A DNA stretch of 53,434 nt from Planctomycetota bacterium (GTDB lineage Bacteria > Planctomycetota > Planctomycetia > Gemmatales > Gemmataceae), in assembly GCA_016191165.1 (NCBI GenBank), contig JACPPF010000019.1, positions 1 to 53,434 on the forward strand, read 5' to 3'. Below, in pieces: positions 2,631-7,713 of this stretch. The notes beneath the pieces are model-generated. The model worked only from the letters and a program-made list of their open reading frames with translations. It was not told the DNA's origin and did not search any database. A program made the translations under genes and the position numbers. The stretch's first letter is position 1. Every line of letters begins with the position of its first letter.

Positions 2631-2742
2631 TTCTTTTTCCATTTCTCCGTCGCAACATTCGTTACATCGATTGGCAATTTCAAGGTTGAGGCCGCACCCA
2701 GTCCGCGCGCGGAACTGGTTCGGCTTGGAAAGGAGACCCGCC

Positions 2743-3474
2743 ATGCTTGTCTTGTCGCGCCGCCCAAAAGAAAAAGTCGTTTTTCCCACCCTTGGCGTCA
2801 CCGTGGAGGTGTGCAGCGTCAAGGGAAATGTCGTGCGTGTCGGCATCGAAGCCCCGCCTTCGGTCCCGGTCCTCCGCAAGGAGCTTACCGAACAGTCAAA
2901 CAAAATCGCGACTGCCGAGCACAAGTCGGAACGCCATCGGCTGCGAAATCGGTTGCACACGGCCACGTTGGCAGTCCACCTCGCGCAGAAGCAATTGAAA
3001 GCAGGTTTGGACGAGGAGGCCGACGAGACACTCACCGAGGCGATGCGCGAGTTCTCGGCTCTCGATCATGAACTGGCGGCGGCGAAAAGCAAGCCCAGCC
3101 GCGAAATTCGGGCGCTGCTCGTCGAAGACAACACCAACGAGAGCGCTCTTTTGGCTGAATTCCTGCGCTTGCACGGTGTCAAGGTCGAGACGGCCTGCGA
3201 CGGCCAGGATGCGCTGGACTACCTGCAATCGCACGATCGCCCCGATGTGATCCTGCTCGACATGCGCATGCCGCGCTGCGATGGGCCGACGACGGTCGCC
3301 GCGATTCGGCGGAACATCGCCTACGACGGTTTGAAAGTGTTCGCGGTCAGCGGGGCCGATCCGCACGAATGCAACGTGGACTCGGGTTCTCGGGGCGTGG
3401 ACCGCTGGTTCACCAAGCCGGTTAATCCCGCCAAACTCGTGCAGGAGATGAGCCTCACGCTCGGCTTGAACTGA
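2743..3474 (+). CDS. CsrA-like RNA-binding domain fused to a response-regulator receiver
   Basis: The ATG at 2743 is chosen because AAGGAG lies 8 bases upstream and the protein then begins MLVLSRRPKEK, the canonical CsrA start. Residues 1-48 form a complete CsrA domain including GIEAP and VPVLRKEL (Arg45 at the RNA-contact position). Residues 50-115 are charged and probably helical. Residues 122-243 are a receiver domain with the acidic pair Glu128/Asp129, phosphoacceptor Asp173 in ILLDMRMP, Ser203 and Lys225 in FTKP. CsrA binds GGA in mRNA leaders and controls translation; the receiver could couple that activity to phosphorylation by a histidine kinase. A hybrid histidine kinase gene lies next door at 3634-7713, convergent. 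CsrA is normally a stand-alone protein of about 60-70 residues. Domain calls are firm; the coupling is inference. Confidence 0.9.
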   Translation: MLVLSRRPKEKVVFPTLGVTVEVCSVKGNVVRVGIEAPPSVPVLRKELTEQSNKIATAEHKSERHRLRNRLHTATLAVHLAQKQLKAGLDEEADETLTEAMREFSALDHELAAAKSKPSREIRALLVEDNTNESALLAEFLRLHGVKVETACDGQDALDYLQSHDRPDVILLDMRMPRCDGPTTVAAIRRNIAYDGLKVFAVSGADPHECNVDSGSRGVDRWFTKPVNPAKLVQEMSLTLGLN

Positions 3475-3633: not shown

Positions 3634-6600
3634 TCACTGCTTTTCCGCAGCCCCTTGCAGCACGCGGGTCAGTTCGTGGGGCTTCAGCGGCTTGACCAGG
3701 TGTTGATCAAAGCCGGCTTCCTTGACGGCGCGCCGATCGTCAGGCCGGCCGTATCCGGTCAAAGCGATCAGGAAGACGTCATCTTTCGACATGGACGCCC
3801 GCACCTGTCTTGCAACCTGATAGCCATCCATTCCCGGCAGCCCGATGTCAATGATGGCAAACTGCGGACGCAGCCTGAGAATCGCGTCCAGACCCGTCGC
3901 GCCGTCCGCGGCCGTGTCGACGGTGTAGCCGTCGAGCTTGAGCATGGCTTCGAGCATTCGTCGGCTGTCGGCATTGTCCTCAATGATGAGAACGCGAGCG
4001 GGATTTTTCGGGAATTCAGAGTGCGGCGCCGGCGGGACAGGTGATTCCGTGGAGCGCGGCAGGCGCACGACGAATTCGCTGCCTTTGCCGACTCCATCGC
4101 TGAATGCCTTGACCGAGCCATGGTGCATTTCGGCGATCGTGCGGACCAGGGTGAGCCCGACGCCGATGCCGCCGTCGGAGCGATCGAGAGTTTCGTTGGC
4201 CTGCACGAAGACGTCGAAGATTTTTTCGAGCATGTCGGGGCGGATGCCGACACCGGTGTCTTTGACACGAACGATGAGCTGAGTGTCGTCGGGTTCCAGG
4301 GAGAATTGAACCACGCCGCCAGCGGGCGTGTACTTGGCGGCGTTCATGAGCAAGTTGACCATCATTTGTTGCAAGCGAGCAGCGTCGCCGAGCACTGCCG
4401 CCGCCTCGCTCCCGACGTCGCAATGCAGGACCACGCCGGCGGAATCGAACGTCGTTTTGACGGAGGCGATAGCTTCGTTGGCGATGGCGCGAAGATCGAC
4501 CACGGATTTGTGGAGCCGGATGCGATTCTGGGCAATTCGCGTGACATCCAACAGATCGTCCAGAAGTCGCGACATCTGACCGACTTGCCGTTGGATCACG
4601 TCGCGCGCCTCGCGATGGAGGTGCAGGCCCGCCCCGTCCTGTTCCAGGACTTGCGTGGCATTCAGAATGGCGCTGAGCGGGTTACGCAGCTCATGGGAGA
4701 GCATGGCCAGGAACTGGTCGCGGCGTGCGAGCGCGTCCCTGGCCTCGTTTTCTGCGCGCTTGCGGTCCGTGATGTCCGTGGAAATCCCCGCCACGGCATA
4801 GATCCGGTTCTGCTCATCGCGCAGCGGAAAGCGCGTGGTAAGGAAGGTGCGCGGTCCGTCCGCCAGATGAAACGTCTCCTCGGCCTCCACGACCCCTTGC
4901 ACCTCACGCACGCGCGCATCGAGTTCTTGGCGGCTCTTGGCCAGCGGAAACGGGAATATCTCGAAGTCCGATTTGCCAACAATCGCCTGGTCTCGACCGT
5001 CCAACAAAAAAGAGAAGCTGCGATTGACCAGGGAATAGCGATCGTCGAGGTCTTTCACGAAAATGATCGAGGTCGAGTTGTCGAGGACCGCGTCGAGGCG
5101 TCGTTGGCTGGCGCCAAGTTCCTGTCTTGCCTCCTTGACAGCGGTGATGTCGATGAACGTCAACACCGTTCCGCCCACTTGCCCGTGTTGCGAGTGGTAC
5201 GGCAGCACGCGCACCAGGAAGGACCGCTTCTGCGGCGCCTCGACCTCCTGCTCCACCGTTTTGCCTTCCGTATGCATGCGCTCGATCAACGACACCAGCA
5301 CGGCGTTGTCCATCTGCAAATTGTTCGAGATGTGCCTGAGAGGCCGACCGACATCGTGAGGTAGGAGATTAAACAGCCGGCCAATCGCCGGCGTGAACTT
5401 GCGGATGTTCATTTCCAGGTCAAGGAAGATCGTGCCGATGTCCGTGCTGGCGAGAAGGTTGTCCATGTCGCTGGTAAGCTGGATCAACTCCTCGATCTTC
5501 CGCTGATGCTCCGCGTTGACAGTGTAGAGTTCCTCGTTGACGGAATGCAGTTCTTCGTTCGTCGATTGCAATTCCTCGTTCGACGCCACCAACTCTTCGT
5601 TAGTCGATTGCAACTCCTCGTTGCTGGTTTCCAGCTCCTCGATCGTCGACTGAAGGTGTTCTTTCGTGTACATCAATTCGCGCTCAAGGCTGCTGATGCG
5701 TTCCGCCGACTCGCCCTGGGCGTCGAAGGTCTGAATTGGCTCCACGGCTGCCGGCGCTTCTTCCGGCTCCAGACACACCTGGTAGAAATTGCTTTGGGTT
5801 CGCTTATTCGCCAGCGGCACGGCGGTTACCTTCATCAGCCGATCCTGACCATTGAGCGAGAAACGAACACCCGAATAAACGACCGGCTTGTTCGCCTTGG
5901 CGGCCTGATGAAGCGCGGAGCTGACAGCGATGCGGAGCGTATGGTCCAGCATTTTCAGGACGTCTGTGGTCGCCTTGCCCTCCGGAATTTGCAGGTAAGT
6001 GCGTGCGTTCCCAAAGGAATGGACCAGTTCGTGATGTTCGTTCAGGAGCAAACTGGGGGGCACGTAACGCGTTAGAAGGCCCTCGTAGATTTCGGGCAAC
6101 TGCGGATCGCCCTTGCCTTGATTGACGAGCGGATTTCGCAACAGCATCGCGGTTTCCGAGAGCGGCATCGTCGCCAGACCCGTGGCCGGATGCAAGCGAA
6201 TGTCGCGCCGTTTACGGAAGACCTTCCAGTGACGATCGATGACGTCGAATTCCTCCTCCAGATCGGAAAGGCTTTCGCTGGGGCCGAGGAAAAGCACGCC
6301 GCCCGTGCGCAGGCCGAAATGAAACAGCGTCAAGACCTTTCGCTGCGTGGCAGGGTTCAGGTAAATCAGCACATTGCGACACGTCACCAGATCAAGTTTC
6401 GTGAATGGCGGGTCCTTGGTGAGATTGTGCGGCGCGAAGATCACCAACTTGCGAATGTCCTGGGTGACGACAAAATGGTTACGCTTGTGGACGAAATAAC
6501 GTTCGAGATACTCGCGCGGCATATCGGCGACGCTGGACTCGCGGTAAACGCCGGCGCTGGCCGCTTCCAGGGACGAGCGATGCACATCGGTGGCGAAGAT

Positions 6601-7713
6601 CTTGACATCGATGTTCTGTTTGTGCGTTTGCGCAAATTCGTGGAAAAGAATGGCCAGCGAATACGCTTCCTCTCCCGTCGCGCAGCCGGGAACCCAGATG
6701 CGCAGGCCGTCGTCCGGCGACGCCTGCTCGAATAGCTTGGGTATCACTTCTCTCTTGATGACATCGAAGGCGTCCTTGTCGCGGAAGAACTGCGTGACCT
6801 CGACCAGCAAATCGCGATAGAGATGATCGAGTTCGTCGCGATCGGCCTCCAGCGACGCGACATAGTCCGCGAGCGATTCGGTATTTTGCAGCGTCATACG
6901 GCGTTCCAGTCGCCGCCCCAACGTACTGGGTTTGTAGAGGGAGAAATCGACGCCAAAATGCCGCCGCAGGAGGGAAAAGACGGCGGAGAGTTCGTCGCCC
7001 GATTGAATGTCGAGGCGAACTTTGCGGATCTCGGAGCGGACGGGGTGCTGGGTGTATTGCAGGATCTTGGCAGGCATGGCCTGCGGCGGCAGGACGAGGT
7101 CGGCTAGCCCCGTGGCAATCGCCGCTTTTGGCATGCCGTCGAACCCCGAGGTTTCCGGTTCCTGGACGAGCACGAGTCCGCCGGCTTCATGAATTTCCTT
7201 GATGCCTCGCGATCCATCACTGCCAGTGCCGGACAGCACCACGCCGATGGCGCGGTCGCCCATATCATGGGCGAGCGACTGGAAGAAAATGTCGATCGGC
7301 AAATTGGGTCCGGGCTTCTGGTCCTGGTCCATGAGCATTAACTTTCCGAATGAAAGGACCATGTTTTTCTTGCGCGGAATCAAATAGATGGCGTTCGGCT
7401 GAATTGCCATGCCGTCTTCGACACGATGAATCGGTAGCTTCGTATGCCGAGCGAGGAGTTCGTCCATCAGGCTCTTGAAGTCGGGCGAGAGATGCTGGAC
7501 GACAACGAAGGTCACGCCCGAATCTTCCGGGACATGATCGAAGAAATGTTCGATCGCTTCGAGTCCGCCAGCCGACGCGCCAATGCCGACGACGAAATGC
7601 GGCACCGGCCGACGGTGGGTGGCTTCCGGTTGAACGTTCGCCACGGGATCGGGCGAGGGGTTTTTCGAAGGTGACGCGGCAAGGGATCCCTCTGCAGCCA
7701 CATGCGGGTCCAT
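3634..7713 (-). CDS. CheB-CheR-PAS-histidine kinase-receiver fusion protein
   Basis: A 1359-residue signalling protein. Residues 40-215 are a CheB-type methylesterase domain with the catalytic set Ser47 (GIGASAGG), His74 (VVQHLS) and Asp166 (GTGSDG). Residues 225-500 are a CheR methyltransferase with the SAM-binding [10 protein letters not shown] (344-353). Residues 665-745 are a coiled coil built of [11 protein letters not shown]-type repeats, as in other CheB/CheR fusions. Two PAS domains follow (about 745-860 and 870-985). The histidine kinase has phospho-His1007 in LSHELRNP, an N box near 1124 (LMNAAKYT) and DTGVGI. The C-terminal receiver (1240-1355) has Asp1289 and Lys1341. No transmembrane segment is seen, so it should be cytoplasmic. 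It may control a chemotaxis-like or developmental pathway. No chemoreceptor is nearby. Convergent with the CsrA-receiver gene, a possible phosphotransfer partner. Confidence 0.93.

Follow-up and report, generated by a model that had tools for sequence, protein, structure and literature searches.

The window, by which we mean the whole stretch of DNA analysed (53,434 nucleotides), is one entire contig of a 7.2 Mb planctomycete genome that is assembled in 183 contigs and is 95% complete. Records from Gemmataceae match the protein family of this locus, which makes a planctomycete of the Gemmataceae the most likely host. A single open reading frame on its forward strand encodes a 243-residue protein with a CsrA domain, a helical module and a receiver domain, and the gene for a large hybrid sensor kinase converges on it from the reverse strand. 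The features of the locus are as follows.

2727..2738, + strand: putative CsrA-type hairpin over the ribosome-binding site, stem GG/CC, loop AAAGGAGA, with ANGGA at 2730-2734
2743..3474, + strand: csrA-Hbox-REC gene, ATG start, 243 aa, single open reading frame
2743..2895, + strand: CsrA domain (aa 1-51), Pfam PF02599, 55.1 bits (cut-off 27)
2911..3084, + strand: DHp-like two-helix module (aa about 57-114) with H-box HRLRNRL, from hhalign to a HisKA set and AlphaFold2 helices
2935..2937, + strand: codon of His65, the proposed phosphotransfer His, aligned with the kinase His; H in 77/80 homologues
3103..3462, + strand: receiver domain (aa 121-240), PF00072, 70.9 bits; Z 20.7 to RR468
3259..3261, + strand: codon of the phosphoacceptor Asp173, invariant in 80 homologues
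3415..3417, + strand: codon of Lys225, invariant in 80 homologues
3634..7713, - strand: hybrid kinase CheB-CheR-PAS-PAS-HisKA-HATPase-REC, 1359 aa, convergent and conserved neighbour with Pfam-assigned domains; proposed phosphate donor
3658..3993, - strand: C-terminal receiver of the hybrid kinase (aa 1241-1352), PF00072, 74.1 bits

The first-pass annotation had described a complete CsrA domain followed by a complete receiver with intact Asp173 and Lys225, and the Pfam scores and the invariance of both residues among 80 aligned full-length homologues bear this out. CsrA and Response_reg (aa 125-235; cut-off 30.2 bits) are the only Pfam domains found in the 243-residue protein; it has no match to ANTAR or HATPase_c, and because the ATPase domain is absent we do not class it, on its domain content, as a histidine kinase. 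The receiver carries the catalytic set E128 and D129, D173, S203 and K225. In the CsrA domain Arg6, Gly34, Ala37, Pro38 and Arg45 are invariant across the 80 homologues. The RNA-contact positions are occupied by L4, R6, R7 and R45 (R6 and R45 in 80/80), which we take to play the roles of Leu4, Arg6, a basic residue at position 7 and Arg44 in E. coli CsrA numbering, the window's Arg45 corresponding to E. coli Arg44. The protein scores 42.8 bits against the NCBIfam csrA equivalog, below the cut-off of 70.1, and its CsrA domain reads as diverged from the canonical equivalog. A good ribosome-binding site, GGAAAGGAGACCCGCC, precedes the ATG.

Phosphorylation had been proposed to act on this protein in place of small RNAs or FliW. 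Three stand-alone csrA genes, one divergent csrA copy and one fragment at a contig end lie elsewhere in the genome; no CsrB-like RNA was matched by Rfam within the window, and a genome-wide search for FliW gave no match at E<=10 across the 95% complete assembly. Upstream of the locus, a selenocysteine tRNA gene (2046-2139, - strand; Rfam, 73 bits) lies beside a 539-residue open reading frame at the contig end (256-1875, - strand) that reads like a tyrosine recombinase and has no Pfam match; possibly an element is integrated at tRNA-Sec in this region.

Distribution of the family

Searches of the window's order, and then of named genome contigs, yielded another 79 full-length proteins built in the same way, every one from planctomycetes or MAGs; the carriers include Blastopirellula marina DSM 3645, Bythopirellula polymerisocia, Stieleria tagensis and strains K23_9 and CA13. 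Across 392 genomes spanning the phylum, strong matches were confined to the class Planctomycetia. An even sample of this class showed the gene in 100 of 398 genomes and 64 of 186 genera; the architecture is not rare, although the first-pass annotation had called it unusual. Nor is it newly seen, since regulators that join CsrA and a receiver had been listed as a class by 2006-2007. Six other genomes of the window's own genus have no copy, and presence is therefore patchy. Plasmid records returned generic receivers only, with no CsrA fusion covering >80% of the query.

In all, 159 distinct family members were gathered. An artefact joining two genes in sequencing or annotation had been raised as a possible explanation and is excluded, since homologues of the same architecture occur in many independent assemblies. 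The broader proposal that the parts are fused without functional coupling, or that the gene call is chimeric, we regard as very improbable: beyond the novelty of the joining nothing speaks for it, while order and spacing are the same in the 159 members, which come from many genera, the catalytic and RNA-contact positions are all kept, and its artefact version falls with the independent assemblies.

Several relatives depart from this build. A 193-residue CsrA-REC protein (L038, CsrA at 1501-1668) has a very short linker and another receiver type, and seems to have arisen by an independent fusion. In one genome (L306:6093-6866 and L032) CsrA and Hbox-REC are split into two open reading frames by an intervening stop. 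Three proteins (L029, L031, L033) consist of CsrA and helices with the receiver absent, and all three have lost the His. L188 has the H-box module and a degenerate receiver with no CsrA domain. In L311 (the L134 gene) the receiver is degenerate, with the acidic pair and the Lys gone, and so is the H-box, both phosphate sites having decayed together.

The helical module between CsrA and receiver

Alignment of the homologues marks out the region between CsrA and the receiver as a conserved domain with a near-invariant His65. The first-pass annotation overlooked this H-box module, as it did the kinase neighbour and the tracking of the His with the kinase receiver described below. The pattern over residues 57-114, H-x-x-R-N-x-L-N...Q...G...A..TL, recalls that of histidine kinases in its H-box, where the His is kept in 77/80, the Leu in 80/80 and the Asn in 69/80 of the aligned proteins. 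When 63 middle modules were submitted to Pfam in isolation, HisKA was the commonest match (19 at E<=1, best E 2.6e-5) and SPOB_a, the Spo0B-type helical domain, was matched by 3 of the 63. The isolated module of the window protein has no Pfam match, to HisKA, SPOB_a or any other family, and on this score we do not assign it to the Pfam HisKA family.

With hhalign, the module profile aligned to the 21 HisKA domains of its own genome with a probability of 95.9 and a score of 40, His on His, against a maximum of 14.6 in 200 column shuffles. The second helix of the module does resemble TPR helices; a TPR control set reached a score of 19 (probability 14), and a TPR reading is thus the weaker one, at 19 versus 40. 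A purely generic linker is ruled out by the conservation together with the profile similarity to HisKA. Histidine kinases were among the H-box matches outside the family when genomes were searched with the module. L190, L191 and L199 are short proteins whose H-box, HRLRNRLNSMKLSLYLARR, is very similar, with no Pfam match downstream of it in the one tested; these are possibly diverged kinases or phosphotransferases.

The AlphaFold2 model places helices at residues 46-86 and 90-114 (mean pLDDT 88); residues 52-56 form a loose hinge. The model of the isolated module superposes without gaps on HK853 DHp chains at an offset of 240, which sets His65 (fragment residue 20) on position 260, the phosphoacceptor His of HK853. 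HK853 DHp is among the best fold scores (Z 7.0-7.8); unrelated helical hairpins do just as well (Z 7-8.4), and for this reason the fold match alone decides nothing. No DHp chain was matched when the module was searched against PDB sequences with hmmsearch, and in the fold search with the full model receivers fill the result, RR468 among them.

Partner kinases and the proposed phosphorelay

All-against-all comparison of the flanking open reading frames revealed one recurrent neighbour, a sensor kinase. Among the 159 members, 143 loci were usable: a kinase lies within 3.5 kb at 119 of these, 74 times as a CheB-CheR kinase, and none is present at 24 that have at least 2.5 kb of flank on both sides. 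The window's genome holds 21 HisKA domains in its 7.2 Mb, and proximity by chance would therefore be expected in only a few percent of cases.

Spo0B, ChpT and HPt domains are His intermediates between two receivers, and Spo0B and ChpT have a DHp-type fold without kinase activity. We propose that the hybrid kinase at 3634-7713 would autophosphorylate on its HisKA His and pass the phosphate to the Asp of the receiver at its C-terminus; the next acceptor would be His65 of the DHp-like module, in the role that Spo0B, ChpT and HPt domains play, and the last would be Asp173 in the CsrA protein's own receiver. Phosphorylation of this receiver would then alter the binding of the CsrA dimer to ANGGA hairpins in mRNA leaders, including that over its own ribosome-binding site. 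As far as the sequence evidence reaches, the CsrA-Hbox-REC protein is probably the RNA-binding end point of such a four-step His-Asp-His-Asp phosphorelay. The first-pass suggestion that phosphorylation might control an mRNA-binding regulator directly keeps its force in that the residues are intact, a kinase is the neighbour and a CsrA-type site covers the gene's own ribosome-binding site; it has to be amended in that the protein has three modules, not two, and the H-box helical module suggests a His-Asp-His-Asp phosphorelay, not simple transfer from kinase to receiver.

If phosphate passes from the kinase receiver through His65 to Asp173, only members with a hybrid partner should need the His. 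Where a kinase lies within 1.5 kb, partners with a receiver adjoin 90 members with the His and 1 without, and partners with no receiver adjoin 7 with and 8 without; for CheB-CheR kinases the corresponding counts are 64 and 0, and 1 and 6. Fisher values of about 1e-7 for these tables ignore relatedness and are not to be read as probabilities. The clearest cases are five clusters with two paralogues each (L289, L290, L292, L295, L269), in which a His-less CsrA-REC adjoins a CheB-CheR-HisKA-HATPase protein that stops 5-22 residues past the ATPase domain and the canonical CsrA-Hbox-REC copy adjoins a hybrid kinase. The missing receivers of the partner kinases were confirmed by Pfam. The His-less paralogues of L289 and L292 have a His one residue further on. 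The copy near a receiver-less kinase in L301 lacks the entire helical module, and in L091 and L310 the His is replaced by Gln beside HAMP-type kinases without a receiver. The cluster arrangement itself is conserved (L292:3870-16000; also L289, L290, L295 and L269), and most of these clusters add a CheB-CheR-PAS protein without a kinase part.

Departures from the pattern were also seen. Seven members with the His have a nearest kinase without a receiver of its own. The sole CheB-CheR exception is L105, where the receiver sits in an adjacent, overlapping open reading frame; in L051, L095, L244, L245, L285 and L299 the His is likewise kept beside such a kinase, and most of these have a separate receiver open reading frame close by. 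L313 is a His-less member beside hybrid kinases, and L075 (receiver intact) and L298 are His-less with no kinase in range. Coding loci for any receiver nearby does not separate members with and without the His, because the clusters contain other receivers. In a tree-aware test 2-4 pairs were supported; each agrees with the association and none opposes it, and at this number the test is underpowered and cannot reach significance. By these comparisons, His65 tracks the partner kinase's own receiver, on few independent events.

DHp modules serve in dimerisation, and bifunctional ones dephosphorylate receivers; hybrid kinases usually need a His intermediate. The protein might be a plain response regulator, with a kinase phosphorylating Asp173 directly and the module serving as a dimerisation or linker helix pair in which the His is kept for packing. 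The complete receiver, the role of DHp modules in dimerisation, the His-less members whose receiver is intact, and the L301 copy without the helical module all fit this account; it leaves unexplained that few positions of the module are as conserved as this polar His (77/80), that the His goes missing where a CheB-CheR partner has no receiver, and that the partner kinases are mostly hybrids, and we consider it rather unlikely. Less likely still is a phosphatase or sink: phosphate on Asp173, or on the receiver of the kinase, would be lost through His65 or the DHp-like surface instead of moving onward. The dephosphorylation of receivers by bifunctional DHp domains offers a precedent and the anatomy and covariation are the same as for the phosphorelay, from which no result here separates it by direction of flow; yet a sink would leave the source of the phosphoryl group on Asp173 unexplained.

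Leader hairpin and relation to known systems

In the window, G2727-G2728 of the csrA-Hbox-REC leader would pair with C2737-C2738 around the loop. GGA occupies the ribosome-binding position in 131 distinct family leaders; 121 of them have an A two before the GGA, giving ANGGA, the CsrA consensus, and 74 have two closing pairs around an 8-nt loop. Such a stem occurs in 11 of the 230 other genes compared from these loci and in 3 of 51 kinase leaders. The stem pairs of the 74 are GG-CC in 58, GA-TC in 11 and others in five, and since the pair types differ among leaders the variation is compensated. The window leader alone folds no better than shuffled sequences (z 0.69), so the case for the hairpin rests on the family comparison. 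The ANGGA leader hairpin and the invariant Arg6 and Arg45 support retained RNA binding, and it is likely that the family both binds RNA and represses itself; the simplest reading would be that the family protein, or another CsrA, represses translation of the csrA-Hbox-REC gene.

To our knowledge, control of CsrA in known cascades lies with sponge RNAs or protein partners. Spo0B, ChpT and HPt domains share with the module the proposed role of a His intermediate between two receivers; the module differs in being fused between CsrA and the terminal receiver, and it has no CA domain. CsrA and ANTAR are listed as RNA-binding output domains of response regulators (PMC2222644, citing Galperin 2006), and the two-domain idea is therefore not new; the CsrA-output regulators likewise have a receiver and CsrA in one protein, a class that the source only lists. 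The ANTAR regulators AmiR, NasR and PdtaR (PMC12471899) let a two-component or one-component signal act on RNA and not DNA, as is proposed for this family, but ANTAR is an antiterminator domain, whereas the RNA-binding part of this family is CsrA. In the Gac/Rsm and BarA-UvrY-CsrB-CsrA systems (PMC4682653, PMC7366521) a hybrid kinase ultimately controls CsrA activity, as proposed here; the regulator in those cascades works as a transcription factor on sponge RNA genes, whereas the present family joins receiver and CsrA in a single chain. The proposed control of CsrA by a protein and not an RNA is shared with CsrA-FliW-flagellin (PMC5466977), although FliW was not found in the window's genome. 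The open-access literature yielded no description of the H-box module, of its partner kinase or of the hairpin in the leader.

We judge it somewhat likely, again from comparison of genes, that the full relay leads to CsrA, with a phosphotransfer module in the output protein that is kept or lost with the partner's receiver and with self-control through ANGGA. CsrA would then directly end a two-component phosphorelay, a fast path from sensor to translation by which an outside signal may switch mRNA use directly via phosphorylation. As many planctomycetes encode the fusion, usually beside a sensor kinase, such direct switching from signal to mRNA may occur in them. The His-less paralogues beside receiver-less kinases would serve as natural controls and make the relay testable, and the family occurs in cultured planctomycetes, such as B. 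marina and B. polymerisocia, in which regulation is little known.

E. coli CsrA has no receiver. It is entered as an orphan response regulator in a table of atypical response regulators (PMC12471899), likely through a misreading of the class.
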